A stretch of 64,000 nt of DNA, from positions 750,603-814,602 of the forward strand of contig VCMS01000025.1 in NCBI GenBank assembly GCA_022539475.1, given 5' to 3'. Below are positions 24,649 through 56,002 of this stretch, piece after piece. Below the pieces are notes generated by a model, which ran no database searches, had not been told where the DNA came from, and worked only from the letters and a program-made list of their open reading frames with translations. The DNA is from Gracilaria domingensis. Its lineage: Eukaryota; Rhodophyta; Florideophyceae; Gracilariales; Gracilariaceae. The stretch's first letter is position 1. Each line of letters begins with the position of its first letter. The translations under genes and the position numbers were made by a program.

Positions 24649-24746
24649 TGTTATCACGCCATCGAGTGGCCACGTAGCAACCCCTAATAAAGGGCTTGCC
24701 CGCCGGCGACCGCCGGCAGGGCGGCCATCGATCTTGCCTCTTCTCA
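24649..24746 (+). repeat. Copia 5' LTR, 98 bp, internally deleted
   Basis: It lacks 75 bp that are present in the 3' LTR; the deletion ends fall in CACGC repeats. The rest matches the 3' LTR. Confidence 0.9.
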
Positions 24747-24756
24747 GGTTATGGGC
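24747..24756 (+). promoter_or_regulatory. Putative primer-binding site, complementary to initiator-tRNA anticodon loop
   Basis: GGTTATGGGC follows the LTR directly. Its complement GCCCATAACC equals the anticodon-loop region of eukaryotic initiator methionine tRNA (CAT anticodon). Drosophila copia and yeast Ty5 prime from such half-tRNAs. Confidence 0.65.
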
Positions 24757-34612: not shown

Positions 34613-36047
34613 TGCTTGATGTAAATTGCTTCTGAACATATTCTCAGCGATTCTCACTCACCCTTTCCAGACCATCTCGGCCCTTCTATAATTACTCTGC
34701 ATGCTCTCAGCCGCCTGTGCGTTCAAAAGGGCGTGAGTATAGGGAGTGGGAAGTGTTTCGCATCTTCATCGCATCTTTGATCAACCTCTCAAGCACTGTG
34801 TTGCTTACGCAAATACTCTGGAAGTTGTAAAGCCTTCAGCCTCAATGGCGCAATCTGAAGCCTGCCATTCTATGTGAAACACATATGGCAAAGAGATTGT
34901 GATGGAAAGCCAAGTGAATAGAACGGGGTTTGGTTTGCATTTTAGTATTTTTTCCTCGGGAACGCACTACGCTTGTTTTAGTGTTATCCGCAATTGGGAG
35001 AGTTCTATATTATTATATCGACGACTTTCCAAGACGCTTATGACAGCGTAGAGTTCGAGTTAACTAGAAGCGAGCGGAGACATTGTCGTCCTCCGTGGCT
35101 TAATTAGAATCAGTATGGCCTGGATGGCAGCTGCAGACTACTATAAATGCACCTGATCGCGGCGATTCGTGATCAGCACGAGGTGAAGGGAGGCAGGAGG
35201 CCCCCAGACAAACTTTTTGTCGTCCCGTGTCTGTAAACCAAAAAACCGATACGGTCGCAACAATTAAGAGCATTCCTCTGCCATGAAAACTATCACATTC
35301 AATCACCCTTACATGAAATCCCCCTGGTCTTTTGCGCTGAGCAGGCAGAAATGCACTAATCAAAAGAATGAAGAGCGCGATCGAGCGACAGCGTTCAAGA
35401 AACGAAGAAAACCAACGCAGCAGAACATCAACCGACAACAAGGGCATCGTAATGACAGGAAGCCAATATTCCCTTGCTTGATACTGCCTGTGTCAGCTGA
35501 CGCTTTTTCAGCCCCAGTTCTGTGCGCGAGCGAAGGCCAGATATTCAGTCGGAGTTCCAAATCTCAAATGAATCAGTCAAGAATGTCCAGCCCTTCAAAC
35601 AGCGATGCTTGATCCATCCTAAACCAATACGGGAACTTCTGAATAATCATAGTCCGGTCTCATTCTTGAAGGCTGCCGAGTCACACAAGCAAGCCTCAAT
35701 CCCTGAATTCATGCCTTCCTGCCGCCCTACCTTACCATGTTTGGCTCATTGTCGGCGGGATTTCTGAAGATGGGGGAGGAGGGAGACGCGGCGAGGTTGA
35801 ATGAGATGCCTCCCCCCTCCCGTGATGAGAGATGGTCGACAGCGGTTGGGATGCGCTCGAATGGCGGCTTTTATATAGAGTTCGGAAACCAATCGAGAGA
35901 ACCGACAGCTGTTTTCAATTTGTATCTTGGGCAGGCGAGATTACGGGAGATAGAGGAGAGGCTAGGGAAATCATCCCAGAGGACAGCGAGAGCGACGTTA
36001 TGGCCGCATTGATTAGAATTGGGGGGTGAAGATGCTCACGGCGTGCG
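34613..36047. other. Intergenic with second duplicated promoter-like segment
   Basis: 35047-35198 repeats 29794-29941, with TATAAAT at 35142-35148. A 109-codon frame at 35283 follows but has no recognisable content. TTATATAGAG near 35870 could be the TATA box of the TIR gene. Confidence 0.45.
35047..35198 (+). repeat. Duplicated promoter-like segment, copy 2
   Basis: It is the partner of 29794-29941, in the same orientation, 5.25 kb apart. The two copies bracket the beta-propeller and membrane-protein genes. Similarity ends abruptly on both sides. Confidence 0.5.
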
Positions 36048-36993
36048 ATGGCTATCATTCGCTCAACACCCCAATTCACTGCCTGCGAACGTGGCGAACT
36101 TGCAATCGCTCGTTGCAGCCTTTCTTTCTCTCATCGCCCGAGTCCCGGACAGCAGACGTGGCGAACTTTCCACCCTACGCCGAGCGGCATCAACCGATGC
36201 GCTCTGCATCATGTTATCCTAGGCTTCTCCCACCACCCCCCATCAGCGAATTGGCAGGAGCTGCCGCCGGAGGCGAGCCATCGCCCTTCGTTCATACGCC
36301 AGCAGCCGATGCGCTCTGTACCATATTCTTCGCGGGATCCTCCGCCAACCACTGTCAGCGAATTGCAGCGGTTGCAGCCCGAAGCCAGCCATTTCGATTC
36401 GCTTCAAGGCAAGCAACCGCGGTTTCGCATCTTCCTTAGCCACGCAGATGAAGACAAGGAGACCATCGCCCGCCTGCTGTACCACTGCCTGCGTGAGCAC
36501 GGTCTCTCCGTCTTCTTCGATGTGGAGTCGTTCGAACTCGGCGAACACTCTCCGGACGTCATGAACCTCGCCATGGTGACCGCGCCCGTCGGCGTGTTCA
36601 TCATGGGCCCTGAGTTTGTGGCCAAGGAATGGCCCATGCGCGAGCTGCTCGCATTTGTCCGCCGCTACGACCGTGCCCGCGCAGCGAAGCTCACACCACC
36701 GTTGCTCATCTCCGTGTTCTACCGGCTAACCACCGGGGAGTGCCGCAACTCGGACATCATGGACACCTACAGCGAGCTTTTCCTTCGGCATGGACTGTTC
36801 GAACGAGCTGCCGACTGCTCAGTTGCCGATCGATGATGTGTCGCACGCGCTAGACACGGCTGCCAAATTGTGGAGCATCGAAAACGATTCTGGTGCTTCA
36901 AATTCCGACTGCCCAAACATGAAGCGTACCCGGAAAGCGTTCATTCAAACGGTGCTGAAGAAGATTTTGGAACGCCTTGGTGCAGAGTTCTGA
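36048..36993 (+). pseudogene. TIR-domain protein gene with broken frame
   Basis: Residues 126-230 of the first frame form a TIR domain: RFRIFLSHADEDKE (box 1), GLSVFFDVESFELGE, then FIMGPEFVAKEWPMREL with a glutamate (about E199) where NAD-cleaving TIR domains have their catalytic Glu. The frame then ends at 36836 in residues unlike a TIR end. The expected last helix (KRTRKAFIQTVLKKILERLG) is in another frame, 36790-36993, so a frameshift or short intron lies near 36790. The Pro-rich N-terminus carries a 112-bp tandem duplication that itself shifts frame. TIR proteins act in immunity and cell death in plants, animals and bacteria. Whether this copy is expressed is doubtful. Confidence 0.6.
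36194..36417 (+). repeat. Two-unit tandem repeat, period 112 bp
   Basis: CCGATGCGCTCTG recurs at 36194 and 36306; each is followed by CC-rich sequence and a CAGCGAATTG block. The period is not a multiple of three, so the two units read the same protein motif (QPMRS, then SEL) in different frames. Confidence 0.65.
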
Positions 36994-38901: not shown

Positions 38902-41900
38902 CTACACTTTGTCTACAAAGTACTTCAGCTTGTTGGAGAAAGCAAATCGAGCCATGTCTTCCGATTCATCCACTATCTTCACGCGGATACCTGTGACGTT
39001 CGTGTCCGCAGAAAACACTTTCCAGAGATGTTTTACTGCTTCCTTCACGATCTGAGCTTCGACTGCCTTGGAAACAGTGTTCGCGTACAGCGCCAGTGTA
39101 ACATTCATCGTTTCATTTGGCTTGGTTGATACCCACATCTGATACAGGCAAAGCCCACCAAAATATTTTTCGAACAATTCTCCTACCGAGGTCGCCACGT
39201 CCACCCAACACACTTTCTTGCTTCCAAATGCGCGTTGAACAGACGCTAAATTGCGCCCCAATAAGTCAAATTTGTTACGCTCCTGGGATGGAAACCGGGC
39301 CAGATCTCCCGTGAAATATCGCACTTGGGGATGAATTTGGCGCAGAATATTAGTTACGACAAGCGTGCCCGCTTGTCCCGTTGGCACTTCCTTTCCCTCG
39401 CTATCAACAACTTCAAGATGGACACTGTCAGGCATAGTTTCGTAATACTTTTCTTCAGGAGGTTTGAGGGCAAAAATTCCAGCTTCACTGCTACCATAAA
39501 CCCCATAGGTGCGAACATCCTCGTTGAAAACATTTGAGAATTTCTGTGTCACTCCTGGATTAAAGTTCTCTCCACCATGCAAAATGCGAGTGACTGTAGG
39601 TAGACGACGACCGTTTCGAAGGCAATAAATGGCCAACTGGATCATATAAGAGCCCATCCCAACCAACATGTTTGCTCCGTACTGATCAATGATATTGCAA
39701 ATGGTTTCATCAGAGACGTTTGGCCCAACTCCTAAATGGGTAGCTTCTGCCCATCGCAAAACCTCACATTGGACCTCCATGCCCGTACTTAAATTATCTG
39801 AGCAAAGCAGATTGACACACACGGTTTGCGAGTTAATGAGTCCCTTGTCCATGTAAAGCTCACTGAGGTTCTTTCGCATTATGTGCATTTCAGAGGAGGC
39901 TGTTGGGAGCGCCACTCGACTAGTACTCGAAGAAGTGGAGCCTCCAGATGGACTCCAGTACAATGACCCCTTCCCAAAGAAATCACTACGAAAGACGGCA
40001 TGCATGCTTTCCACGTACTTAGATTTGTGCAGTAAAGGCCAGTTATGAAACTGAAATGGATTGGCTTTGATTCTCTCAGCTGTGCCAGGGGGACAGTAAG
40101 TGAAGTACTTCTCAAAAAGTGGGTGTCGAATAGCCGCATCAAGAGAGCGATAGAGTTCTGGTACGAAAGGAAGGTCAAAACCTACTTGATCGATGCCACC
40201 GGGAGAAATGGAATGCAAAAAGGAGTGATTATCGAACATCAGAAGACAAGGTGCAGCGATAACCACCTTGTTCTGGCTTGCTTCTAAACAAATCTGTCTG
40301 CAGAACGCACCAAACGCTTTGTTGAAATCATCGAGTTGGGGTTGAGCAAGATGGTCTGTGAACATGCTGCCAATATCGAATCGTGCTCGTGAATCAGAGA
40401 ACAGAACCGGGGACAGGACTGATTCAGCAGGCATATCATCATCTCTGTTCGCCACTCGCCACTTGATACGCACGGTTCGCAGAACATGACGACTGCAGAT
40501 GTCGAGTTTCTCGACCACGTGCCGAACTCTAATAAGCCGGCAGGTAAACAATTGAGTATCGACTGCAGAGGTGTTATTTGCAAACGCCACAATACGGGGT
40601 GGACGAAAGTTCTCACAAGCCGCAGTTCGAAATGAGGAAACGTCAGACATATCTACAACTGTAGAGGGAGGAACGGACACACCACACTTTTGTGACCCCC
40701 ATACGAAATTCTTCGCCTCCATCTTTCCTCGCAAATATTGACCAAGGCTTCTCTCTCCTGGTGCGTTCTCAAGCGCGACAAACGCTGGCTGATCGTTGGC
40801 AAGGGCGCGAATTAAAGTATCGCGGGAGAGTTCATGGAGCACGGGTGAGTACAATTTGTTTACACTAGTACTAGACATAAACTCCAATTCCCTATTCAGA
40901 GTTGGGAGGTGAAGATCAGGGCTGAAAGGAGCTTGGCACTTGAAATATGCCGGGCCACAGAACACATTCGTCGCAGAAATTATAATCCCGCAAGTGTCTG
41001 GAGCGACATTGGATACCTGCTTTCCTAAGTCAACCTGAAGGAACTGCACAACGAAGGGAGAATCACGTATGGCAGACACAGCATCGCAAACATCCTCCAC
41101 ACGAGCGATTGTCGCGGCGGTGGCGGATATGTCGAAACGATGGCGTAGAAGGAAAAAGGTATTGGAGAAGTGGAGCATGGAGGACGAGAAGAGACGGACG
41201 GGGACCGTAGGTACGATGGCCTTGCGAAGAATCGCTCGAAGATGTTGCTCGACGGGAAGTTGATGAAGATGACGACGGAGAAGGTAGAGGAGATGTCCGT
41301 CTTCTGCCATAGACGAGAGACGGAGGTCTGCAAGGAGCTTTGACTGGCTCGCTAGGGCAAGAATTGGAGAAATGTGTTCGTTGGGATAGTCAAGCAGTTG
41401 GCGGATGGGTATTTCTAAGGAAGCCATAGTGATCGGTTGGGGCTCGGAGGTGGCCGTACTTGTGTAGTGGGGAACATTATTGATGAGAGAGAGATGAGAG
41501 GGAGGGCAGAGGTGTACAGCAAACGGTAGGGGAGGGAGACACAGCGTTTCAGAGGGAGCATGGATGAGAACCAGAGGATTTCGAGGTGCTTCAGATTGAA
41601 GATAAGCAGTGATACGAGAGAATAGCAGAATCGATGGGGTGTTCGGAGGTGTGGGAGCTTTGCAGAGAGACTCGCGTTCATGTTGGAGAGATGAAAACAA
41701 TGTAGAGATGTGAGGAGAGTGAAAGGCAGAAACCTGGGGGTCTGTCGCGGAGCAATGGAAGATAGGGAAGGGAAGTAGAACGTGGGAAGTTGAGTAGGAA
41801 GGCAGATTCAGATCCGAGAGGATGGACGGGACTGGAAGTTCTGCTTGGAGCTGGGAATCCGATATGAGAAAGTGGAGTAGGTGCGGGAGGGCCTGTTGGA

Positions 41901-41934
41901 GGGCCGTCGCGGTGTCGGTGAGGATGGCCGACAT
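38902..41934 (-). CDS. Fusion of degenerate ATP-grasp/TauD region and adenylate-forming domain, 1010 aa
   Basis: The C-terminal part, about 625-1010, is an adenylate-forming (AMP-binding) domain close to PaaK-type CoA ligases: phosphate loop SPSGGSTSSSTSR at 661-673, YGVYGSSEAG at 810-819, and the ribose-binding aspartate in YFTGDLARF at 873-881. It would activate a carboxylic acid as acyl-AMP. The first ~590 residues align in order with the neighbouring 685-aa ATP-grasp/TauD protein, but key residues are gone: its LKPCMYGKGAG loop is LRHRFDISATA here (263-273), its HTD metal motif is RTA (436-438), and the distal DNQKYAH becomes DNHSFLH (568-574) with no following arginines. So this half is probably a pseudoenzyme with a binding or scaffold role. 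The start is ATG 41934, with a TATA box at 42007-42013. No carrier-protein domain is present. Confidence 0.75.
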   Translation of the reverse strand: MSAILTDTATALQQALPHLLHFLISDSQLQAELPVPSILSDLNLPSYSTSHVLLPFPIFHCSATDPQVSAFHSPHISTLFSSLQHERESLCKAPTPPNTPSILLFSRITAYLQSEAPRNPLVLIHAPSETLCLPPLPFAVHLCPPSHLSLINNVPHYTSTATSEPQPITMASLEIPIRQLLDYPNEHISPILALASQSKLLADLRLSSMAEDGHLLYLLRRHLHQLPVEQHLRAILRKAIVPTVPVRLFSSSMLHFSNTFFLLRHRFDISATAATIARVEDVCDAVSAIRDSPFVVQFLQVDLGKQVSNVAPDTCGIIISATNVFCGPAYFKCQAPFSPDLHLPTLNRELEFMSSTSVNKLYSPVLHELSRDTLIRALANDQPAFVALENAPGERSLGQYLRGKMEAKNFVWGSQKCGVSVPPSTVVDMSDVSSFRTAACENFRPPRIVAFANNTSAVDTQLFTCRLIRVRHVVEKLDICSRHVLRTVRIKWRVANRDDDMPAESVLSPVLFSDSRARFDIGSMFTDHLAQPQLDDFNKAFGAFCRQICLEASQNKVVIAAPCLLMFDNHSFLHSISPGGIDQVGFDLPFVPELYRSLDAAIRHPLFEKYFTYCPPGTAERIKANPFQFHNWPLLHKSKYVESMHAVFRSDFFGKGSLYWSPSGGSTSSSTSRVALPTASSEMHIMRKNLSELYMDKGLINSQTVCVNLLCSDNLSTGMEVQCEVLRWAEATHLGVGPNVSDETICNIIDQYGANMLVGMGSYMIQLAIYCLRNGRRLPTVTRILHGGENFNPGVTQKFSNVFNEDVRTYGVYGSSEAGIFALKPPEEKYYETMPDSVHLEVVDSEGKEVPTGQAGTLVVTNILRQIHPQVRYFTGDLARFPSQERNKFDLLGRNLASVQRAFGSKKVCWVDVATSVGELFEKYFGGLCLYQMWVSTKPNETMNVTLALYANTVSKAVEAQIVKEAVKHLWKVFSADTNVTGIRVKIVDESEDMARFAFSNKLKYFVDKV

Positions 41935-42006
41935 ACCGAAGATAGGAAGAGTGAGTTTGAGAGATGCTATTCACGATGTGTGAAAAGAGGAGCTCGTGGG
42001 AGGCGA

Positions 42007-42013
42007 ATATAAA
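42007..42013 (-). promoter_or_regulatory. TATA box (TTTATAT) of the adenylation gene
   Basis: It lies about 75 bp upstream of ATG 41934, giving a leader of roughly 45 nt. Confidence 0.45.
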
Positions 42014-42259
42014 GCACTACGCGAGCCTCACGAAGCAACAAACGTTGTCGATTCACCGAGTGGTCATTGATGCTTGCCCTTGACGGAAGTTTGGGCTCTA
42101 TGAGTATGATGGAACCCATCAAAAGACCGTTCATTCCAACCTGGCTGCATCGAGACGGGAATGAGTCCAGGAAGCACATGATATATTTCGTAACATTAGT
42201 ATGGACGGTATCAAGGGTAGATGTCTAAAGTATGTGGAGATGACTGCTATAAGCACTGT

Positions 42260-43633
42260 TTAGTTTTGTACGTGTAGCAGTCTCCATCCCCACGGATGCA
42301 TTACCAGGATGAAGCCAGCAACCACTGGAAGCGCACACACACAATAGTGCCAGGAGCCAAACAAATCCACGATCCAGTTGGCAAAACAGAACTGAATCAC
42401 GGCCGGGCCCACACTACAGATACTCCACAAATACCCCATTTGTTTCCCTGACTTTCTCCCTCCCACCGTCTTGCTGAACGTGCTGAAAACTGCGGTCAGG
42501 AAGAAGTTCGATGCCTTGATACAGAGAATAAACCCAGCTACAAATTGCCATCTCTCTACCTCCCCACTCCATGGAAGGCACAACAACGTGCCGCATAGCT
42601 TAAGGACCATTCCGATCACAAGAATGTCAAAATCTTTCAAAACTCTCGATAACAGAGCCACTACCACTGGTGGAACTAACGCCAGTGCCCCCACAATACC
42701 GTACGTTCTTCCAACCTCCTCCTCATCGGCTCCATACACCCCAATTAGTACTGGTTGAAAACTAACCTTCACCAGCGCCATTGTAGTTTGCATTAGCAAA
42801 GTCAATAAACAAAAGAATGTGAACTTTCGTACACCTCTACCGGGAGACTCTTCGACATCATTGCTATGCACATTAGAGGTGGAGTCTAATGGCACTTCCA
42901 CGCTCTTCCCACCCGCCTCTGACTTGTGCTGTCCCCCCTCATCACCGTCTTGTGTCATTGAGACATCCTCCCCAGTTGGAAGCGATCGAATTGTCATCAT
43001 TCCAAGAAAGAACATCCCGACAAGAATCCCAATTGACACCAAATAGTTGACGAAGAAGCGGTCAATGACCACCACACTTGCTACAGAAAACGTGCTACGC
43101 CATTTCTGAATCATGATCCACAACAGAGGCCCAAGCATAGCCCCTATTGGTGCCATGAGTTGATGAATAGCCATAATAGTCGTGCGTGTTGCAGATGGTA
43201 CAACTTGTGCGATAATACTCAGTCGCACTATTCGCAGCGTTAAACATACAGCGTACACAGCGTAAGCTACGTAGAACAGGCATCTACTTTGGCGAAATAG
43301 AGTTATCATTAAGATGCCTGCTGCTACAACCAAGTAGGCAAAGCAGAGCGTATTACCAGCTCCAAAACGAGCTGAAAAGATTCCCAAGATTGGATTTGCA
43401 AAGATCGGAAGTAGAAGAGCTAGGGCGGAGGCATTGAAATAGATACTGTTGGCATTGGACAGTGAACTGGCGTTCCTAAGATAGAGCAGTAATGTCCAGT
43501 CAACGCAAGAAATGACGAGCATGGTGCATATTGCCATAAAAAGGACAACAACAACCGGTGTGGAGAAGTGAGCATTGTGGCGTTTTCCATGGAGAAGCGG
43601 CTTGGAGCTTTCATCTTTCGTTAACAGGGGCAT
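42260..43633 (-). CDS. Major facilitator superfamily transporter, 457 aa
   Basis: ATG 43633 (MPLLTKDESS) is chosen because the ~110 residues of open frame before it are not membrane-like and the decayed duplicate preserves the same start region. About 11-12 hydrophobic helices are split by a long hydrophilic loop rich in Glu, Ser and Gly after the sixth, as usual for MFS. Motif ILGIFSARFGAGNTL in the first half fits the helix 2-3 loop. The substrate cannot be inferred. It lies 326 bp upstream of the adenylation gene on the same strand, and the pair was duplicated together, so a shared role such as export of the product is reasonable inference. Confidence 0.82.
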   Translation of the reverse strand: MPLLTKDESSKPLLHGKRHNAHFSTPVVVVLFMAICTMLVISCVDWTLLLYLRNASSLSNANSIYFNASALALLLPIFANPILGIFSARFGAGNTLCFAYLVVAAGILMITLFRQSRCLFYVAYAVYAVCLTLRIVRLSIIAQVVPSATRTTIMAIHQLMAPIGAMLGPLLWIMIQKWRSTFSVASVVVIDRFFVNYLVSIGILVGMFFLGMMTIRSLPTGEDVSMTQDGDEGGQHKSEAGGKSVEVPLDSTSNVHSNDVEESPGRGVRKFTFFCLLTLLMQTTMALVKVSFQPVLIGVYGADEEEVGRTYGIVGALALVPPVVVALLSRVLKDFDILVIGMVLKLCGTLLCLPWSGEVERWQFVAGFILCIKASNFFLTAVFSTFSKTVGGRKSGKQMGYLWSICSVGPAVIQFCFANWIVDLFGSWHYCVCALPVVAGFILVMHPWGWRLLHVQN

Positions 43634-43999
43634 TGTCCTTGAAATACTGAAGTGGAAAGAAACGGTGAAAATCTGTATCTTACTTGCCGGGGATTCAAAC
43701 ACCAGCGTGTTCCAAGCAGGGAACGAGAAATAGCATATGGAACGGAATTCCTTACGGAAAACTCGCCTTCCCTGTTGTCCTGTCAAAATGGTCTCGTGCA
43801 TCAAGGGTAAGCTTCTTGAAGCTTCAACACTGCTGTTTTCGGGGCTTATAGAAATGGTGCCAAAAAAACCCATGCGAGTTTCCATCGTGTCAAACATGTT
43901 TGATCTACCGTTGTGTACAACACACGAAATGGATATGTTGTCAGTGAAGGAAGCACTCTGCATCTACTGTCTACTAGTGCATGGCGGGACTCAAAACTG

Positions 44000-45144
44000 A
44001 GTTTCAGAGGTGCAGATACGTGTACAGTGCACCTCCTATTACAAGACTATAGGCTGTAGTATTCAGCCCCTCCGGGCCAAGGAGTCTGGGGCAGTCGTCT
44101 TGTAATGTAAGAGATCTCTTGGAATCAAGGACAACCGGAGGATAGAAAGTTGAAGGTTATCCTCATAACTTTAGAAACGTGTGACTCTACCTACACCTTT
44201 CTACTGCACGAAAGGTTACGCAGCGTGCGGTACGCGAGTACCAAGAGTAGCCTGGAGGGCTACCGTTGGTACGTGTACATTCGGTACAAGGGGATAGAGG
44301 GCTAGCCCTCTTTAGGGAGACGCTCTTCGCCCTCGCCCCAAGGCCCCTCACCTCGCATGGATTAATCCATGCGAGGTGAGGGGCCTTATATTATCCTGCT
44401 ATCTAGATTGGATATGCAAATTTGGGTGTAATTAGCGACTTGCTCGGATCTCCGCTGCAAACCGTGAAAAAGAAAACCCATTGTTATTTCTACACCGTTC
44501 GGTTTGGTAGATGGTGTCTACTGTATCCCGAGCACTTCTGCTTCCTTTTCGCGCCACCTGTCAAGCAGACCAACTGCATCAATTCCATCCCACTCCATTA
44601 CTGGTACCATGTTTGAAACATTATACACGCAACATCATAATGACTCAAATGATTTTTGAGAAGACAGAAACAAACTTGAATGCTTCAGACACGTCTCTAC
44701 AGTACAGAAATTGTCAGATGTTATTGTTGATGCACTCAAGATCTGTAGATCGAACTCGACCGATTCGGTCATACGAATTCAAACAGTATTGCCCATCTCC
44801 TCGAAGACGTTGATCTGGGTGCAACTCTTACATGACTATCAAAGCAATCTGTTCTTGTCTCCAGTAGGGAGGCTATTTTGCAGCAAGCAGTGACTCATTA
44901 AAAATATTCTCTTTGATTGCCCGTGAGCGCCGCTGCCATCGGCTTTACTATTCAGATAAGCTTCGACAGAAGCATTGGAACGTCTTTTTTAAAAGGAAAG
45001 AATCCTTCCGTGGCATGCATGCAATCAATTACGCGTTGGTCAACGTACCCTATAAAAACTTGCGCGTAAATCACCGGCCCAGAGGAGAACTTGGTTTAAA
45101 ACCATCATGCTTCCAATGAAAGCCCGTCAGTCAGGCCGCTCAGC
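44000..45144. other. Intergenic spacer, source of a segmental duplication
   Basis: No gene. 44540-45120 is related to 48830-49310. It contains the palindrome at 44340-44387. Confidence 0.5.
44340..44387. repeat. Perfect 48-bp palindrome (24-bp arms, no spacer)
   Basis: AAGGCCCCTCACCTCGCATG begins the left arm; the centre is GGATTAATCC. Every base pairs. It stands in a non-coding spacer. Confidence 0.75.
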
Positions 45145-45927
45145 CGAAGATGAGAGGGAGGACAGACGTGTACGTCGAAAGGGAGATGAGGGAAAAGTTG
45201 GTTCAAAGGGAGTATGGTTAAAGACAAGAAACGTTCGGGGCGAAATGAGCAGTGATACGAGTTGGAAGAATTGATGGGATTTTTGAATGTGCGGTAGCCG
45301 TTAGAGGGTAGTTGATGTTGGAGTCAAGGAAAAGTGGAGAGGCTATGTACCCCTACCTGCTTGCTATTTTTGTGCTTCTTATATACCAAATAACTCTTAA
45401 AAGTAATGGTCACAGAACATTTGCGCTCGTTTGATTCTGTGATTGTGTCAGCTCCGAGCATTTGTTTAGGGCTGCTGTCTCTGTAATGATCAAAATTGGA
45501 ACTTTGATGCAAGCCCAACGTCTCGCCCTACCAGAGCAACTCGATGCTGTCGTGTTCTCACGATAGTGGCGCTCTCAAGTCGTTTGGACACTGTTGCCCA
45601 AACAATTTTATGGCTCCACTTTGGATGTGTTTGGCTGTAGCAGTCTCGCAACAAAAGCTTGGCAGAAAGACTCGCGTTTACGTTGGAGAGATGGGAACAG
45701 GGTAGAGATATGAGGAAGGTGAGAGGTGAAAACCTGGTGGTCTTCAGGGAGGAAAAGGAAGATATGTAACGGAAGTAGAGCGTGGGAAGTCAAGAAAAGC
45801 ATAATTCCGAGAAGATGGACGGGAGGTGGAGTTCTGCTCGAAACTGTGAGTTCGATGTGTGAAGGTGGCTCAGTTACGCTAATGCCCGTTGGAGAGCTAT
45901 CGCGGTGTCGGCGAGGAAGGCAGACAT
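45145..45927 (-). pseudogene. Decayed 5' fragments of the adenylation gene
   Basis: The start region is still readable: ATG 45927 opens MSAFLADTAIALQRALA, like MSAILTDTATALQQALP of the intact gene. Further on, HLPHISTLFPSLQRKRESF matches HSPHISTLFSSLQHERESL. 45660-45927 corresponds to about 41670-41934, and 45145-45330 to about 41490-41690, with ~320 bp of unrelated sequence between them. Frames are broken and the ATP-grasp, oxygenase and adenylation regions are absent. Confidence 0.75.
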
Positions 45928-46031
45928 ACCGAAGGTATGAAGAGCAATCGCTACGAATGTTTGAGAACAGGTGCCGATTGGGGAGTGGGGCGGCGAAAAG
46001 CACAGCATGAGTATACCGAAGCCTTGCTTCG

Positions 46032-46310
46032 TAACACTAACGCAATGACAAGCTTTGTCTATTTGCTGAATGACCATTGGTGCTCACTGAGCACCAATGG
46101 TCATTGGTATAATGCATCGTGAGACTAACTCAATCACAAGCTTTGTCTATTTGCCGAATGACCATTGGTGCTCACTGAGCACTGAGCCATGAGCACCGAT
46201 GGTCATTCGGCAAATAGAAAAAGCTTGTTATTGCGTAGAATGACGATGTATTATACCAATCGTCACTCTGAGCACTGTCACTACTCAAGAGTGACGATTG
46301 GTATAATACA
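46032..46310. repeat. Cluster of fold-back hairpins
   Basis: Hairpin 1: 46071-46086 with 46088-46103, perfect. Hairpin 2: 46137-46174 with 46190-46227, 38-bp arms with two mismatches. Hairpin 3: 46247-46269 with 46288-46310, 23-bp perfect arms. The left arm of hairpin 2 is also duplicated at 46049-46086, so 46040-46236 forms a larger fold. It looks like a composite fold-back element next to the decayed gene's upstream side. Confidence 0.7.
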
Positions 46311-46355
46311 CCGTTCTAATTTTATTTCGAGATCAATGCGTAATGTGGTCTAGAG

Positions 46356-47220
46356 TAGGCATTTATCCGGACGGCTAGCCGTTTGAATGCACCCGTTGCA
46401 AACCCATCCAAAATTACCCTGGACGAATTTGGAAAATCGAAAACTACATTTTAATTTATCCGTCTTCGCCCACATTATAAAAACTGTTTTCGCAAAACAA
46501 CCGAGTCCAAACATTTATGATCTTATCGGTTCCGGAAAAAACCAATACGTTTGCGATTATGGATAATCCGAAATAGTAAAAATTTCTAAACGGATTGTAT
46601 CCGATGTTTTCTATTTGCAAAACTGCTTTGAAGATTTAAACTCCGTTTAAATTCATAATCATTTAGTCTGATAAGATGAAAAACTTCTTGTTGCCTTTTT
46701 ATATGCAGTTTCTTTGTAAGTATATGCTAGAACACTGTATAAACACAGCAGGCAACGAAAGGTTTTATGTTCAGACCTGAAACCAATACCCCAGGAACGG
46801 CTTATTGACAAAAGAACTCAATGTTTTCACAATAAATATATAGTTGACACTTATAAAGACTCAGAAAAGGAATTACAGTTCTTTGAGATAGCTTAGTTCA
46901 ATTTTGAAAGCTACGTGTAGTTATTTGGAATTATTTGGTTAGCAATGAATATAATTTCTCGTTTAGAAAAATTTCGTTACTTAACGAAAACGAATACTGT
47001 TAGTTTTTGAAAGAACACATATATCAAAACCGTGGCATCCGTTACTGTTTGAAAGTCTGCAGAAATCATTCTTTACGATCCATATTGGTTTGTTGTAGTT
47101 TTTCTCAAATTCATATCCGATTATGTCCGGAATTTCTACACGCCATTCTTGTTTCTAGTTGTTTATTATGCATCGTACTTCAGAGCCTATATGGATAATA
47201 TCCGTCCGAATAAACCCCTA
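46356..47220. mobile_element. Non-autonomous hAT-type transposon (MITE), 865 bp
   Basis: Terminal inverted repeats TAGGCATTTATCCGGACGG and CCGTCCGAATAAACCCCTA match with few mismatches. The 8-bp duplication GTCTAGAG flanks both ends (46348-46355 and 47221-47228). An 8-bp duplication and TAGGG-like termini are the hallmarks of hAT elements. The inside is AT-rich, repeats TTATCC-GGAT motifs, and encodes no transposase. Confidence 0.75.
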
Positions 47221-47470
47221 GTCTAGAGGACCCTCCAAAGGCATTCTGGACGCTTCCCGTTGACGGTGCTTCCGTTTCACGAAAGCACGGGCATGAGCTT
47301 CTACGAAGGTAGATTAGAAGTTCTAATACAAGGTTACACAATCCCGTTGTAGTTCCAGATGCTTCAAAAATTATCTCGAGACGAAGATCTCTTGTATACT
47401 CATAATTACGCAAGATACCTACTGTACTGTACGTGTAGATTACTGCTTAACTGCACTGCTTACCTTGGTA

Positions 47471-48125
47471 CGTGTAGTGGTCTCCATCCCGGCGGATTCA
47501 ATACACTGCCAGTAGTTGCTGGCTTCGTTTCCTGGGAAAGAAGCCAGCAACCACTGGAAGTGCGCACACAAAATAACGCCAGGAGCCAAACAAATCCACG
47601 ATCCATTTGGCAAAACACAACTTAATCACAATTGGTGCCATGCGTTGATGAATAGCCATAGCAGTCGTGCGTGTAGCAGAAGGCATCCTTATGCAACTTG
47701 TGCGATAATACGCAGTCGCACTCTTTACAGCGTTAAACAGCATGGAAAGCTGCGTAAAACAGAAATCTACTATACCGGAGAGCAGTCTTATCCAGTCAAC
47801 GCAAGAAATAGAGCATGGTGTATATTGCCATGAAACGCACAACGACAACAGGGTTGGAGAAGTGAGCATTGCGACGTTTTCCACGGAGAACAGCTTGGAG
47901 CTTTCATCCTTCGTTAACAGGGTCATTGTCCTTGAAATAGATGAAGGGGAAAGAAGTTGTGAAAGTCGTTCGTTTTTCTTGCAGGGAATCGAGACGAGAC
48001 AAAAGGCACATAGTTCCTTATTTGTTGTGACAAATTGGTGAGGTCTGGTCACGAGAGAATGCGGGTAAGTTTCTTGAAGCACCAGCCCAAATGAAGAATC
48101 TCTTTCGGCGCCATGTGGTGGCAAA
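47471..48125 (-). pseudogene. Decayed copy of the MFS transporter gene
   Basis: Segments match the intact gene in order: 47471-47636 with its 3' end (FANWIVDLFGSWHY region), then SATRTTIMAIHQ-like and CVDWTLLLY-like pieces, then the N-terminal MPLLTKDESSK start (here TLLTKDESSK) and the upstream sequence to about 48125. Two internal deletions remove most helices. The 3' end carries an extra inverted copy of 18 bp (47509-47526 against 47540-47557). Confidence 0.8.
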
Positions 48126-48829
48126 AAGCACAGTAACAGTTACTTTCTGTGGCAGAGGATAACGATGGTTACCAAGATGACGGACGCCAGGCATGACGTG
48201 CGCTTCTTCATACGTTTTCGAGGGAGATGATGTAGGGTAACTGGTTTCATCTCAATTCTGAACGGTTGTGGAGCAAAGTCGCCCGCACTGCATCGAATAC
48301 GATATTCCGCGTTAAAAACTTTGTACCGGATTTGCTGCAGGCGTGTTACGCGAGTTTTCATCACTTCGAGCATCAACACCTGCGCGCAACAAAAAATTAC
48401 AAAGCGTACCAAGCCCAATTGACATGATGTCGGTGAAGAAGGTACATGCAGTTCGAACGAACCGTTTTAGTTTTGTCCTTTTCTACAGTTCATGAAGCGC
48501 ACCGTACAAACGGTACAGTGCCCCTGGGGGGCAAGGTATTACTCGGTCTGAGGGGTCCTGTCTTAACAAGCGGTCTCGTTGACAAGCGGTCTCGTTGACA
48601 AGCGTTGTCGTTGACGGGAGATCTCGAGAGTTTATCCCCACGTATCATTCACCCGTCGTAACGACTGTTCGAATCGCCCAGGGCCTGCTCCAGTCCGAGG
48701 ACTTCCTGCACAAATCCAATGCAGAATCTGCAGGGCGCAGATCACGTGTCAGACATGCAAAATTTGCAATTTAATTGGACCGAGCCGGGGGTGTGATGAC
48801 TCTGCCAATTTGTAACGCAGAACACTGCT

Positions 48830-49310
48830 GCTTCGCGCGCGCGCCACAGAGCGTGCATGTCAACCAACTGCGTCAATCCCATCGCACTCCATGTTTGAAA
48901 CAGACGCGCAACAACTGGGGATCCCAATGCTCGTTGTAAAGCTGCTCGTAGAGACGAATTTGTTTCTTTTCTCCACAGCTTCTGAATATCGCAAGCCACC
49001 GAATACAAATACGAAGGGGATCACGATTTTACGTTATGATTGGTGATAATACAGTCACTAAAAGGGAAGCTACTTTGCTTCTAACGGTGGTAGCCTTTTG
49101 CTCACGGGTTTTTTCCTTTGAATGGCATTGATTGGCCATAGGTTCTCCCTTTCGGAGATCCATCGACAGAAGCAATGGAACGTCTTTGGAAAGTGAAAGA
49201 ATCCTTCCCGCTCAAAAGTGCTGGCATTTAATCAGTTCCACATTGCTTCCCTTGGTGCCATAACAACTTGCCGATTGCTTAAGGCACTGGGTCTGGCATG
49301 CTTCCATTGG
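48830..49310 (+). repeat. Segmental duplicate of spacer 44540-45120
   Basis: Shared blocks in order: CCAACTGC(G/A)TCAATCCCAT then CACTCCAT..TGTTTGAAAC; GACAGAAGCA(A/T)TGGAACGTCTTT; AAGAATCCTTCC; CATGCTTCCA. Together with the two pseudogenes it shows that the whole adenylation-MFS-spacer unit was duplicated. Confidence 0.65.
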
Positions 49311-49423
49311 AAGCAATTAGTATAGGATATGAATAATACTATAACGTATAGAAAAATCCGGCAGATTGCGGATATCGTCAAATGAATCTTCCCAAACCTT
49401 GTCCGCGGCCCTTCTGAGTTTCC

Positions 49424-49430
49424 TATAAAT
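49424..49430 (+). promoter_or_regulatory. TATA box (TATAAAT) of the ATP-grasp/oxygenase gene
   Basis: It lies 140 bp upstream of ATG 49570, with a leader of about 110 nt. Confidence 0.55.
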
Positions 49431-49569
49431 GCGGATCTTAACAGTAGAGGCTGCAGAGCACCTGTTCTTCGAACTCAAACTCAGTATCGAGCTCGGTTTG
49501 CAACTGTGAGTAATTCTGCTTTGAGCACATTCTCCGTTCTTCACCATCTTCGAACTGCTCTCTTACGCG

Positions 49570-51627
49570 ATGTTCTCAAATCTTGTCTCCAAAAGCCCTG
49601 ATTCCATCGAACAGGGCCAGAAAGTATATCAAAACCTTCAAGAAGCATTCCGCAAAGCTTCATTCACCCCTTCCTTTACTTCTGCTCTATCGCATTGCTC
49701 GCCATCACCGTTCCTTGTCGATATTGAGACGTACCGTGAATTTTCAGTCGCTCATGATGCTATCGTTAAAGGAATACGGGCCATCGTTGCGCAGTGGCCC
49801 AATAACAAGAGGCTTCGCCAATTGCTTTCCGTGCATCCCAGAATTGAACGAGTTCTTCTCAAAGCCCCGCACAACTACATCATGGGAACTGTCCGGCCTG
49901 ATGTGCTTTTTGCAGAAGATGGCAGCTTCAAGGTTTGTGAGATCAACTCTCGCTTCTCACTGAATGGGTATCTGGTGGCTGCAGTTAGCAATACTGTCAT
50001 GCATAATCTTTCCATGCAACCGTCGTCGTTATTGGCACAGCACGGGCTTTCAGCGATCAGCTCGCTCCTATCTTTCATGCCGGATTTGAAGAAGAGACTT
50101 ACTGCCGACTGCGTCGACACGGTCTGGATCCTGAATGGAAGGGAGCCCGAACATGATATTGCTGCCATCAGTACTACTCTGGATGTTAACGTTCGCCATT
50201 GCAAACCGGAGCAGCTGACGTGTGGGGATAACTGTATGGGCAAGATATATTGTAGAGAGACGAATGGATGTATCACGGAAATTCGTTCTTGTGTAATTGA
50301 GCTTCACCAAGACGAGTTCCTTTCTTTGGAAGATGATGTTTTAGAAGCACTTGCTTCTCTATCATATCGTGGTCATGCGCTCAACGACTTCCGCACTATT
50401 TTCTTGGCCCATGACAAACGTTTGCTCGCCTTACTCCTTTCCGACTACTATGAAATCGACTCATACACCCGTGGACTGTTGCAAAATTATCTTGTCCCCA
50501 CGACGTTCATCGAGAATTCGGATCTTTGTCTTGAGTTTCTGGAAGGGAAGTCACTCGTCTTGAAACCATGCATGTACGGCAAAGGTGCAGGCATTTTGAT
50601 GCAGAAGAACATGACCGATCAAGACTTTCTCGACAATAGCAGGTTAAACAAACAGAAAGTCCCTCATGTTTTCCAAGAATACATCAAACAACGCCAGATG
50701 GAACATCTTCATCCTGACGGGCAAATTTCCAAATTTAAAACGGTGGGAATCATATCTTCTATGGACGGAAAGTTTTATGGCCCAGGAATGTTCCGTAGTA
50801 ATGGTGGTGATACAGTATCAATCCATGGCGGGGGCCTTGGTTCGTTTCCAGTCTTGGAAATACATGGAATTCCATCGCATACACGCTCAATGTGCTCCGA
50901 GCTCCGATTCGCCGATTCTTCCGCAATTCTCAAATCGCTTGCCAGAGATGGAGTTGCTCTTATTGGTGTTCAGAAACGTCTCGGTGACAAGGAAGAATTC
51001 GCGAAATTCTTGAGGGAGAAGCTCGGTGCAAAATGCCGAACCCACAGCGATCTGGACGGCGAAGTTTGGGACATAAAGCCGGTGGAGAAGTGGACTGCTC
51101 AAAATGCACGATCACACACCACCCGTCCATTTGAAATCCATACGGATGCATCATTTGAGAAGGAACCGCCCCGGTTCGTAGCAATGTCTGTAATCCATGC
51201 CGATAGGCGTGGAGGCGGCTTGTTCTCAGTTTCGCGTATATCAGATGCTGTATCTGAATTGGAAAAAGAAGATGTCAAGAATCTGATGACCATAAAGGCC
51301 AGGTGGATCGTCCCGAATGAGTTCCGTAAGACTGGAGAAAGAGATACTTTCGCCCCGGTTTTGATGTCCCATGATAAGGCTCGCTTTCGTCAGGACAAGG
51401 TTGTTACGGACCACTTACCCCTAGAGGAGGCGGAGAGGTTCAGGAAGTCATTCAAAGCATTTTGTGGAGCAGTTACGAAGGGGATCAGCGATGAGTACTT
51501 AGTTCCCCAGCAAACTGTGATTATCCTTGATAATCAGAAATACGCACATTGCCGAACTGAAGTGATGGACTTTGATCGCCATCTACAACGAGTACGATTC
51601 GATCTAGCAAACTGTCTCGAAATTTGA
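49570..51627 (+). CDS. ATP-grasp ligase fused to TauD-type Fe(II)/2-oxoglutarate oxygenase, 685 aa
   Basis: The N-terminal ~430 residues form an ATP-grasp-like unit: RPDVLFAEDGSFKVCEINSR at 109-128 and a nucleotide-binding stretch SLVLKPCMYGKGAGI at 328-342, then FQEYIK and GPGMFRSNGG, as in glutathionylspermidine-synthase-like ligases that make amide bonds through an acyl phosphate. Residues ~445-685 form a TauD/BBOX-type oxygenase: HTD at 524-526 gives the first His and Asp iron ligands, H660 in LDNQKYAHCR the second His, and R670 and R674 in RHLQRVRF the 2-oxoglutarate arginines. All oxygenase catalytic residues are present. No signal or membrane segment is seen, so it is probably cytosolic. 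It stands apart from the degenerate relative at 38.9-41.9 kb, which shares the full architecture. Reaction and substrate are unknown. Confidence 0.78.
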   Translation: MFSNLVSKSPDSIEQGQKVYQNLQEAFRKASFTPSFTSALSHCSPSPFLVDIETYREFSVAHDAIVKGIRAIVAQWPNNKRLRQLLSVHPRIERVLLKAPHNYIMGTVRPDVLFAEDGSFKVCEINSRFSLNGYLVAAVSNTVMHNLSMQPSSLLAQHGLSAISSLLSFMPDLKKRLTADCVDTVWILNGREPEHDIAAISTTLDVNVRHCKPEQLTCGDNCMGKIYCRETNGCITEIRSCVIELHQDEFLSLEDDVLEALASLSYRGHALNDFRTIFLAHDKRLLALLLSDYYEIDSYTRGLLQNYLVPTTFIENSDLCLEFLEGKSLVLKPCMYGKGAGILMQKNMTDQDFLDNSRLNKQKVPHVFQEYIKQRQMEHLHPDGQISKFKTVGIISSMDGKFYGPGMFRSNGGDTVSIHGGGLGSFPVLEIHGIPSHTRSMCSELRFADSSAILKSLARDGVALIGVQKRLGDKEEFAKFLREKLGAKCRTHSDLDGEVWDIKPVEKWTAQNARSHTTRPFEIHTDASFEKEPPRFVAMSVIHADRRGGGLFSVSRISDAVSELEKEDVKNLMTIKARWIVPNEFRKTGERDTFAPVLMSHDKARFRQDKVVTDHLPLEEAERFRKSFKAFCGAVTKGISDEYLVPQQTVIILDNQKYAHCRTEVMDFDRHLQRVRFDLANCLEI

Positions 51628-52661: not shown

Positions 52662-53146
52662 TGTAGTGCAACGCAATTGCGGGACTCCTTCGCTGATGCG
52701 ATTCATAACATGCACGGCGATGCCGGGAGGTGGTGGCACACAGTATGAGTAACTGGTGAGATCAGCCCATTCTTGGGTATACTTAATATTAGAATTAGTG
52801 TTATGAGGCGCACGGCTTAGCCGGTGGGTCACACACGTGTGGGAAGTTTGCACCCATTAGTTGGGGTATTTTAGATGTTTATTCTAGATATTTTCGCTAC
52901 ACCGCTTGACAGTGGGTTGGCACTCTACACTACTTAGTAGGTTGAGCTGCACCCATTGTCGGGGAAGTAAACGGACTAACCGAGTGTTCGGCTCTGATGT
53001 TTCACCCTTGGTGACCGATATCCTCCTCCCGGAGAGTCGACACCTTGTGCAGGGTTCATCATCCGCCTCGCGGCATCATTAACACCACTACCGCTTTCGC
53101 GTGTTTACTTTGTGTGTGTTTTCTTTATTTCTGTCCCTGTTATACA
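52662..53146 (+). repeat. Gypsy 5' LTR, 485 bp
   Basis: It begins TGTAGTGC and ends TTATACA and aligns in order with 3697-4209. Confidence 0.7.
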
Positions 53147-53917
53147 GGTAGCACTACTTGGTGTACCGGTGCATACCGTTCGTGGCTCGACACACTCGCG
53201 TGGGCTATTACCGCTCTCGCGTGTCATCGCCACACTCGTGGGTACCGCGTGCTACGCACGTGACGCTACTGCCGACTTGTGTCGTGTGTTCTCTACCGCT
53301 GGACGCTTCTTCTTCGCCGCTTCGCTCCCTCCATTACTTGGGAAGGGTCGACCCCGGTCTTACACCCGGCATTGCCGTGTCGTACCTGTGGGAGCGCTCT
53401 ACTGCTGTGCTCGCCTCTTGAGAGAGGGTCTGAACCGCCTTTGCGTGTCTTTCCCCATCGCTGGGTTTTGCACAACAATTGGTCTCCCGACTTAGAAGTC
53501 GCGTTGATCCAGCAAGTTGGCTTTCTGATCAATTTCCGGTTTGCCGGTTCGTATCTGGTCGTGGAAATACACTACACAGTTTCTACTGGAAGGCTCTGCC
53601 GACAGACGTCGTGTTGGTACTGCTTTCTTCATTTTGGGTTGTTGTTTGGACACGGTTTACTACCGGTGGCACTACCTATTTCCGTAGTGTGTGATTCCCG
53701 TCGGTACGGTTGTTGTCACCCCGTTTGGGTTGTCTACCGTTCCCAGCAATCTGGTCGAATCAGCCCTAATTCCGTATACGGCTGTTCCCGTTGGTACGGT
53801 CGGTTCGTCCGATTTGTCGGTTATCGTCACTCGCGTGAGGACGCTACACTCATTCGAGGTTAATTTGTTGTTTTGCTTTCCTGGTCCCAGTTTTCTGGTT
53901 GTATCTCGTCGTGGACG
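53147..53917 (+). other. Gypsy 5' leader, 771 bp
   Basis: It lies between the LTR and the gag ATG, with no clear primer-binding site in the first bases. It is rich in short pyrimidine runs and shares TTACACCCGGCAT with the remnant at 4.4 kb. Confidence 0.5.
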
Positions 53918-56002
53918 ATGGTGTCGGGCAAGCGCTCGAGCCCTACGAAGTCTCGCTCCGTTGGCTCTGGCTTGCCCCCACGTCTGCGGTCTGTTCCTGA
54001 ACCCCTACAGGGTGATGGAAAGAAACCCGGAAACCGGAAACAGCCTGACAAGTCGTCTGACGCCCCAGTGGCTGGGCCCTCATCTGCTCCTTTGGAGGGT
54101 CTTATACCCGCTGTCGCGGCGAAGGATGCGCTCGTAAACGAGTTGGAGACTCAAGTTCGTGTGCTTGAGGCTCAGACTGCTGTCATGAAGAGTTCTCATG
54201 AAGCACTCGTTTCCGAGGTCGACACACTTCGTTTGAAGGTTGACGCAGCCCTCAACGGAGGTGTATCAGATGATCTACGTATTTTACGGAAGGATGTTAA
54301 TGCCCTCTTGGAGGTTCTTCAAGGATATCCCAGTTTCACCGAGGAGGTTAACACGAAGTTCATTCGGATCCTTGGCCGTCTTGAGACGTTAGAGGCCACC
54401 ATCCGTGAGGATGACGGCCCTGCTGCCGCCTCTGCGGGAGTGTCTCGTGGTACACGTGACCGGAAGTCCGGGAAGAGTCGCTCTAAGAAGAGGAATGTCG
54501 ACGAGTATGACTCGGATTCGTCACAGTCTTCTGGTATTTCAAACCGCTCGGCGGGTTCCTTGTCATCGAGCTCGTCAAGTGACGGTGAACGTCGCGCTCG
54601 TTCTACGCGTTCGCGGAGTTCTACGTCCACCTATGGTGTTGTTGGTACCCGGAAACGGGGGCGAAAGCACTCAGGTTTGAGGGAACTGGAGCCGACGAAT
54701 CCCTTGTTCAAAAGGTTGTTATCTTACCGGTATTACCGTTTAGAAGATTCAAGTCTGAACCGAACGCCCCGTGGCACGGGTAAGGTGAAGGACTGCATCA
54801 AACGCATGTCCTTAACCTTTCGCAACCAGTTGTTCACTGGGGAGGATCCCATTCTGGTGCTTGACTTTCTTTCACGCTTTGTAGCGGAAGCTGACATCCT
54901 CGGCATGAGTGAGGGGCAAGCTTATGTTGCCTTACCGTATTTTCTACGGGGACTCGCTGAAGATCAGTATAACTCTGTAAGAGGTTCATCTCGCGCCTCT
55001 GAAGGAGGGGTCACCTGCTGGCCCGAAGCAGTGCAGTATTTGTTGCGCTCGTATGCGACAAATACCTCTATCGAGGAAGCAATCACCGCGTTGCGGGAGA
55101 CGAAACAACGCCCGAAGGAGTCGGAAACCGAGTACTCGGTACGCCTGAATAAGGCATTCCTCCGTTGTGGCAATGTTTACTCCTCAAACGAGCGCTGTAC
55201 GCTGTTTATCAACGGATTGAATCCGGCTATTCGCACTCTGGTTGCCCAGCGACGGGAAGACCGGAAGAAGACTACCTATCTGGAGTTAGTGCAGTACGCG
55301 AAGGCGGAGGGAGACGCCTTGCGCGCACGCACCGGATACCGGGTTTCAACCAAAGCGTTGCACCTCGAAGAAGGGTCGTCATCGGCTTCACTGCTACCGC
55401 AGGACTTTTCTGGCCACGATGTGGATAACTTACATCTCGCACAGGTGGACCTGGATTCTATTCCGACTACGGAGTTGCCTTCTACTTCAGAAGCCTCGTC
55501 GAAGACGGAAGATGCGCTGCTTTACGCAAACCGTCCACGCGTTCGCGGTCCTCAAGTACCCTATTCAGGGAGTCGTTACCAGCGACCGGGTTGGGTAGAC
55601 CCGCGAACGGTGAAGTTCCAAGACCCACGGAGTTCCGGAAGACCACCCCTGATCTGTTTCACGTGTTACAACCACGGTCATGCAGCTCCGAACTGCAACC
55701 TCTCGATGAGGGAAATGCCCACGGTTGTGGCGAATTTTGAAGCGCTGACCCCCGCCGAACAGGCGTCAGTGCCGGTAACCGCATATCTGCGTGCGAAGGC
55801 TGAGTACCCCCGTAGGGTGTCTGCTGCAGAATTGGCTGCGTTACTGCACTCTGGTTCGACCCAGGTCAATGTTTCACCGGCTCAAGCCGTGGCGGCAACC
55901 GCTGTTGCGGGTAGTTCTGTCGCTGTTCCACAGGAATCTGTGAAGATGCCTGCTGCACAGGACGCCGTTCCCGTTAGAACGGATGGAACTCAGTTAAACT
56001 GA
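53918..56002 (+). CDS. Gypsy Gag, 694 aa
   Basis: The start is ATG 53918; the open frame just before begins with TTG. A basic Pro-rich N-terminus is followed by heptad-like helices (about 60-160), a Ser/Arg-rich segment (about 170-260), the capsid region (about 280-480), and one CCHC zinc knuckle with C580, C583, H588 and C593. This is the element's RNA-packaging protein. The stop TGA at 56000-56002 directly follows the GTTAAAC heptamer. The frame is intact although pol is broken. Confidence 0.85.
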   Translation: MVSGKRSSPTKSRSVGSGLPPRLRSVPEPLQGDGKKPGNRKQPDKSSDAPVAGPSSAPLEGLIPAVAAKDALVNELETQVRVLEAQTAVMKSSHEALVSEVDTLRLKVDAALNGGVSDDLRILRKDVNALLEVLQGYPSFTEEVNTKFIRILGRLETLEATIREDDGPAAASAGVSRGTRDRKSGKSRSKKRNVDEYDSDSSQSSGISNRSAGSLSSSSSSDGERRARSTRSRSSTSTYGVVGTRKRGRKHSGLRELEPTNPLFKRLLSYRYYRLEDSSLNRTPRGTGKVKDCIKRMSLTFRNQLFTGEDPILVLDFLSRFVAEADILGMSEGQAYVALPYFLRGLAEDQYNSVRGSSRASEGGVTCWPEAVQYLLRSYATNTSIEEAITALRETKQRPKESETEYSVRLNKAFLRCGNVYSSNERCTLFINGLNPAIRTLVAQRREDRKKTTYLELVQYAKAEGDALRARTGYRVSTKALHLEEGSSSASLLPQDFSGHDVDNLHLAQVDLDSIPTTELPSTSEASSKTEDALLYANRPRVRGPQVPYSGSRYQRPGWVDPRTVKFQDPRSSGRPPLICFTCYNHGHAAPNCNLSMREMPTVVANFEALTPAEQASVPVTAYLRAKAEYPRRVSAAELAALLHSGSTQVNVSPAQAVAATAVAGSSVAVPQESVKMPAAQDAVPVRTDGTQLN
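55993..55999 (+). promoter_or_regulatory. Putative -1 ribosomal frameshift site G TTA AAC
   Basis: In the gag frame the codons are TTA AAC TGA; pol lies in the -1 frame, which is open through this point. GUUAAAC is an established slippery heptamer in arteriviruses. A 7-bp stem CGAGGCG/CGCCTCG lies at 56052-56069, and a shorter TCTCC/GGAGA stem at 56012-56024. Confidence 0.6.

Follow-up and report, generated by a model that had tools for sequence, protein, structure and literature searches.

A locus of three genes in the red alga Gracilaria domingensis is probably a red-algal version of the E-64-type amide pathway, a route independent of nonribosomal peptide synthetases. It lies in the stretch analyzed here and called the window (64,000 nucleotides of contig VCMS01000025.1, positions 750,603 to 814,602 of the forward strand), where three intact genes, A and B on the minus strand and C on the plus strand, fall within 12.7 kb (38902-51627). 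E-64 is a natural inhibitor of protein-cutting enzymes made by fungi, and its pathway in Aspergillus uses an Fe/2-oxoglutarate (2OG) oxygenase, an ATP-grasp enzyme (Cp1B) and an ANL amide synthetase (PMC12568646). A first reading from the letters alone (the sequence-only reading) had placed ligase, oxygenase, adenylating and transport domains on three genes in 12.7 kb, and open frames, Pfam matches and homology to Cp1B bear this out. Its description of gene A as an adenylation fusion was right about the AMP-binding domain but overlooked the degenerate ATP-grasp and oxygenase domains in the same protein. The features are as follows.

49570-50865, plus strand: gene C, ATP-grasp half, residues 1-432; Cp1B-like, with Cp1B residues R139, D141, E163 and N165 conserved
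50866-51627, plus strand: gene C, Fe(II)/2OG oxygenase half, then stop; TauD family, HTD...H and RVR intact
42260-43633, minus strand: gene B, major facilitator superfamily (MFS) transporter, 457 residues from the likely ATG; Pfam MFS_1
40900-41934, minus strand: gene A, pseudo-ATP-grasp at the N-terminal end, residues 1-345; stripped of its catalytic residues
40165-40899, minus strand: gene A, pseudo-oxygenase, residues 346-590; RTA in place of HxD, distal His kept
38902-40077, minus strand: gene A, PaaK-like adenylation domain (amide bond synthetase-type), then stop; motifs intact
about 47429-47990, minus strand: pseudogene remnants of a second MFS gene; interrupted by stops
about 45148-45954, minus strand: pseudogene remnants of the beginning of a second gene A; interrupted by stops

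Domains and catalytic residues of genes C and A

Gene C, with its likely start at the ATG at 49570, encodes 685 residues. The oxygenase half matches Pfam TauD (2.9e-10), and HTD, H and RVR, which we take to be its catalytic motifs, are all intact. The ATP-grasp half drew no hit from the local Pfam copy and was identified through homology to Cp1B, whose carboxylate-activating residues R139, D141, E163 and N165 read RDEN in C, and PF28486 (precomputed) is present on all nine homologs from the protein search with C. Of 15 listed paper titles on ATP-grasp and red algae (from 19 papers), 10 deal with mycosporines or sunscreens, but a mycosporine-type enzyme was rejected, as the C ligase matches Cp1B; the mycosporine cluster in the portion of an algal gene-neighborhood study drawn on here differs from the A/B/C locus (PMC7826186).

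Gene A, with its likely start at the ATG at 41934, encodes 1010 residues and carries at its C-terminal end an AMP-binding domain (Pfam, 3.2e-10). Its motifs YWSPSGGST, YGSSEAG, YFTGD, GR and a C-terminal K, to which we assign adenylation roles, are intact. Two narrower identities were rejected: a plain phenylacetate-coenzyme A (CoA) ligase (PaaK; TIGR02155, 20.5 bits against a cut-off of 646.3) and a DdaG-type fumarate-diaminopropanoate ligase (NF041596, 11.5 bits at E 0.11, where the cut-off is 700). The two upstream domains are dead. The equivalents of R139, D141, E163 and N165 are lost from the ATP-grasp, and in the oxygenase HxD has become RTA with the distal His retained. The HxD loss is common to four A-type proteins of one clade (100/99) and is therefore old. 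Against the homolog P0011, the dead parts of A align over 343/345 and 240/245 residues at 39-40%, and the adenylation domain, the best conserved part, reaches 58%. A hidden Markov model (HMM) built without A detects the dead ATP-grasp in A (2.1e-5) and in P0011 (1e-6), with values from a small database. The predicted structure of A is only fair (predicted local distance difference test 72.0, predicted template modeling score 0.56), and since its alignment held C-type rows, the likeness of the model to Cp1B is not fully independent.

That A also holds a degenerate ATP-grasp and a degenerate oxygenase means that, judged by sequence, A and C are paralogues. At E≤0.01, a genome search with C returned C itself, A and a copy of C on contig C8; with A as the query, the same three came back together with the A remnants.

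Gene B matches Pfam MFS_1 (9.5e-17). Its likely start is at 43633; earlier in-frame ATGs exist, and the open frame reaches 43963. It has one paralogue elsewhere in the genome (36%), and no solved relative was found at E≤1. The MFS and A remnants between B and C keep the order and strand of the intact B/A pair and contain stops, so it is most likely, going by this arrangement, that MFS and A were duplicated together once and the copy then decayed. The sequence-only reading was thus right that two genes had been duplicated together, but the second copy is a wreck.

Relatives, bacterial neighborhoods and genome context

The weight for a cluster is carried by the bacterial neighborhoods and not by the proximity of A and C. 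A single scan of bacteria gave 41 loci with this ATP-grasp. By oxygenase and adenylation HMMs (E≤0.01), ATP-grasp, adenylation and oxygenase genes are neighbors at seven of them (L013-L018 and L020), with the oxygenase on the opposite strand in L015 and the ATP-grasp and ligase fused in L020. At three more (L019, L025 and L047), an oxygenase stands beside the ATP-grasp without an adenylation gene, and two of these three loci end at, or about 1 kb past, the ATP-grasp (16 of the 41 neighborhoods were viewed). Three of these loci with adjoining oxygenase and ATP-grasp genes belong to bacteria with a life inside other cells: Candidatus Aquarickettsia rohweri (L020), Rickettsiella massiliensis (L025) and a Midichloriaceae (L047). 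A separate ATP-grasp branch, with N165 replaced by T, is formed by six gut- or rumen-type rows (Prevotella, Fibrobacter, Lachnospiraceae and kin; L026, L028, L029, L031, L032 and L038), and the HMMs found neither oxygenase nor ligase with them; by eye, the ATP-grasp of L028 and L029 adjoins genes resembling sugar-polymer biosynthesis. In an Ignavibacteriales locus (L023:7372-11206), three tandem ATP-grasp copies are followed by genes that look, by eye, like a carrier protein, a short-chain reductase and a ketosynthase.

In the phylum of L017, 386 genomes were sampled; a TauD match turned up in 13 of them, and none of the 12 new regions showed an adjoining ligase. The closest approaches were in L089, where a weak ATP-grasp match (2.5e-5) lies about 6 kb off, and in L090, with a very weak adenylation match (0.034) at about 4 kb. 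A Microcoleus-type mfa operon was sought in the same sample and none was recovered.

The three protein searches each scored the 7,990-7,997 candidates with most shared words, so some relatives may be missed. The search with C gave nine matches, that with A five (the window's own protein among them), and a profile search 23, of which the named ones are one bacterium and eight fungi (Wilcoxina, Trichophaea, Peziza, Pyronema, Sphaerosporella, Jimgerdemannia, Paramyrothecium and Letrouitia), six of the eight also having a TauD domain. In P0033 of Paramyrothecium this ATP-grasp is joined to an ABC transporter, which may be a gene-model fusion. A search for viral relatives gave 40 pattern matches, none confirmed. 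P0001-P0005, P0011-P0013 and P0014 are termed red-type from their grouping with C or A. P0014 (1128 residues) holds ATP-grasp, oxygenase and adenylation domains with intact motifs in a single chain, its AMP-binding score lying under the Pfam cut-off (22.4 against 29.9). The best tree joins it to the A-type proteins at 77/52, which is unsupported, and two alternatives have approximately unbiased test p values of 0.36 and 0.39.

The start of contig C8 overlaps the locus over 8,008 alignment columns with 1 mismatch and 15 gap openings; the C8 copy of C was therefore rejected as a second genomic copy and is a contig overlap. Small gaps break its frame in the first half, so that the two contigs give discrepant versions of the overlap. 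With a single mismatch against 15 gap openings, the differences look like assembly error, and the frame on the window contig is the version backed by homologs. Chance or artifact is ruled out as the source of the locus: the frames of A and C are long and open, relatives of both are found elsewhere, and a phycobilisome linker gene is on the same contig. The linker family (PF00427) gave 14 matches on nine contigs of this genome, the window's contig (C25) and C8 among them, and matched one of 14 control genomes, Synechococcus elongatus; by these genes the genome is that of a red alga. Beyond the overlap, the listed open reading frames (ORFs) of C8 resemble mobile elements (judged by eye), and a repeat at 52662-53477 of the window is found again on C8, as expected of a long terminal repeat. 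Retroelement-like open frames stand beside the locus at 24691-29022 (plus strand, RVT_2 and rve) and 53864-61528 (plus strand, judged by eye), and a TIR_2 domain (1.4e-12) occurs in an open frame at 36030-36836 (plus strand), about 2 kb left of gene A.

Proposed pathway and competing explanations

We infer the substrates, the product, the order of steps, an A-C complex and transport, the order being taken over from E-64 by analogy. The oxygenase half of C would supply a small acid warhead, most likely trans-epoxysuccinate made from fumarate, which the ATP-grasp half would phosphorylate and join to an L-amino acid. Next, the adenylation domain at the C-terminal end of A would act on the free carboxylate of this pseudo-dipeptide, adenylating it and transferring it to an amine, and the MFS protein would export or store the product. 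By the same analogy, A and C would jointly yield an epoxysuccinyl-type pseudo-dipeptide amide. The dead domains of A would be kept as structure, their likeliest role being to pair with C, the bearer of the living versions; this role as a docking scaffold is suggested by their long preservation. Somewhat more tentatively, and at a little under even chances in our judgment, a P0014-like three-domain ancestor may have been duplicated, with C keeping the ATP-grasp and oxygenase, A keeping the ligase and dead folds that dock on C, and the product being a red-algal epoxysuccinyl cysteine-protease inhibitor. Since the trees leave unsettled whether C-type or A-type proteins are nearer to P0014, this duplication and split is a reading and not a result.

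Several observations weigh against an E-64-type pathway. At the level of sequence the likeness is that of the ATP-grasp to Cp1B, the oxygenase and adenylation domains being matched to Cp1A and Cp1D by family. The Cp1B side-chain pocket (F175, V228, V477 and I488) reads V, H, M and I in C, so the amino acid may differ from that of Cp1B and none is named here. The nearest solved relatives of the C oxygenase are amino-acid hydroxylases (AsnO, clavaminate synthase and KDO1) and BBOX1, and the adenylation fold of A is of the PaaK-like group, to which CoA ligases belong as well. Dead ATP-grasp was seen only in A and P0011 among the four A-type proteins; in P0012 and P0013 only 10/345 and 23/345 residues align to that part of A, which may, from the alignment, be truncation or true absence. 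The closeness of A and C is weak proof of a cluster, because it is partly due to paralogy. No oxygenase was found at 31 of the 41 bacterial loci. In the 386-genome sample, 13 genomes had an ATP-grasp match, strong only in the starting genome, and the Microcoleus anchor was thus not reached. No Cp1C-like decarboxylase was recognized among the 8 further window ORFs that were scanned (E≤0.001); this pyridoxal phosphate-dependent enzyme of the E-64 pathway is accessory and dispensable in A. nidulans (PMC12568646).

The same cassette logic could serve a different chemistry, in which the oxygenase would act on an amino acid or another small acid by hydroxylation or desaturation and the two ligases would build an epoxide-free amide. 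We regard this as possible but doubtful: the hydroxylase relatives, the altered pocket and the malic and fumaric acid analogues still formed by the fungal enzymes without Cp1A (PMC12568646) all fit it, but the ATP-grasp of C is directly homologous to the epoxysuccinate ligase and keeps its carboxylate-activating residues, and the three-enzyme set equals the minimal E-64 cassette. It is unlikely that A stands outside the pathway of C as a diverged paralogue left by duplication, its adenylation domain being an acyl-CoA ligase or regulatory. Although the paralogy and the catalytic residues gone from two of its three domains would suit such a leftover, the seven bacterial loci with all three activities, the single chain of P0014 and the adenylation domain as the best conserved part of A speak otherwise. 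Very improbably, the pseudogene remnants of MFS and A, the dead A domains and the broken C frame on C8 mark a route being lost in this alga, given that on the window contig all three genes have uninterrupted frames, the HxD loss is old, the dead parts align to P0011 almost throughout, and the C8 differences look like assembly error.

If the E-64-type pathway is correct, a protease-inhibitor pathway of fungi and cyanobacteria extends to red algae, and a locus so far unannotated gains a named, testable product class. The locus would also illustrate how a fused biosynthetic enzyme can divide into two proteins while dead domains are long kept, and P0014, if the chemistry holds, would be a one-protein biocatalyst.

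Comparison with known pathways

The closest parallel is the E-64 cassette cp1/cp2 of Aspergillus flavus/oryzae (Cp1A, Cp1B and Cp1D), with which the locus shares an ATP-grasp that is a homolog of Cp1B and keeps its catalytic residues, an Fe/2OG oxygenase with intact HxD...H, and an ANL-family adenylating enzyme, all encoded side by side. It differs in having two fused proteins in place of three, with A retaining dead copies of the other two domains, and in having an MFS gene within the locus, the word transporter being absent from the main text of PMC12568646. Bacterial three-gene cassettes (mfa of Microcoleus, PMC12568646; and the Obscuribacter, Isosphaeraceae and Deltaproteobacteria loci, likened to mfa by activities alone) likewise have the three activities adjoining, but as separate genes (fused in L020) of variable order and strand. 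The dapdiamide pathway (amide bond synthetase DdaG, ATP-grasp DdaF and oxygenase DdaC; PMC12568646) also combines two carrier-free ligases with a 2OG oxygenase; A falls far below the cut-off of the DdaG model, and further steps separate the two amide bonds of dapdiamide (PMC12568646). Fungal ATP-grasp/TauD fusions (Wilcoxina, Trichophaea, Peziza, Pyronema, Sphaerosporella and Jimgerdemannia) have the two domains of C in one protein, in the same order in the two shown in alignment, but unlike the C/A locus they have no adenylation domain listed.

The amide-making unit proposed by the sequence-only reading therefore finds backing in the bacterial neighborhoods, but it is not new in kind, as the E-64 pathway uses the same enzyme set. 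The statement that no red-algal pathway with this set had been described still stands within the open-licence PMC papers that the searches covered. What is new here is the red-algal genome, the fused architecture, and a gene A in which a dead ATP-grasp and a dead oxygenase precede an intact adenylation domain.
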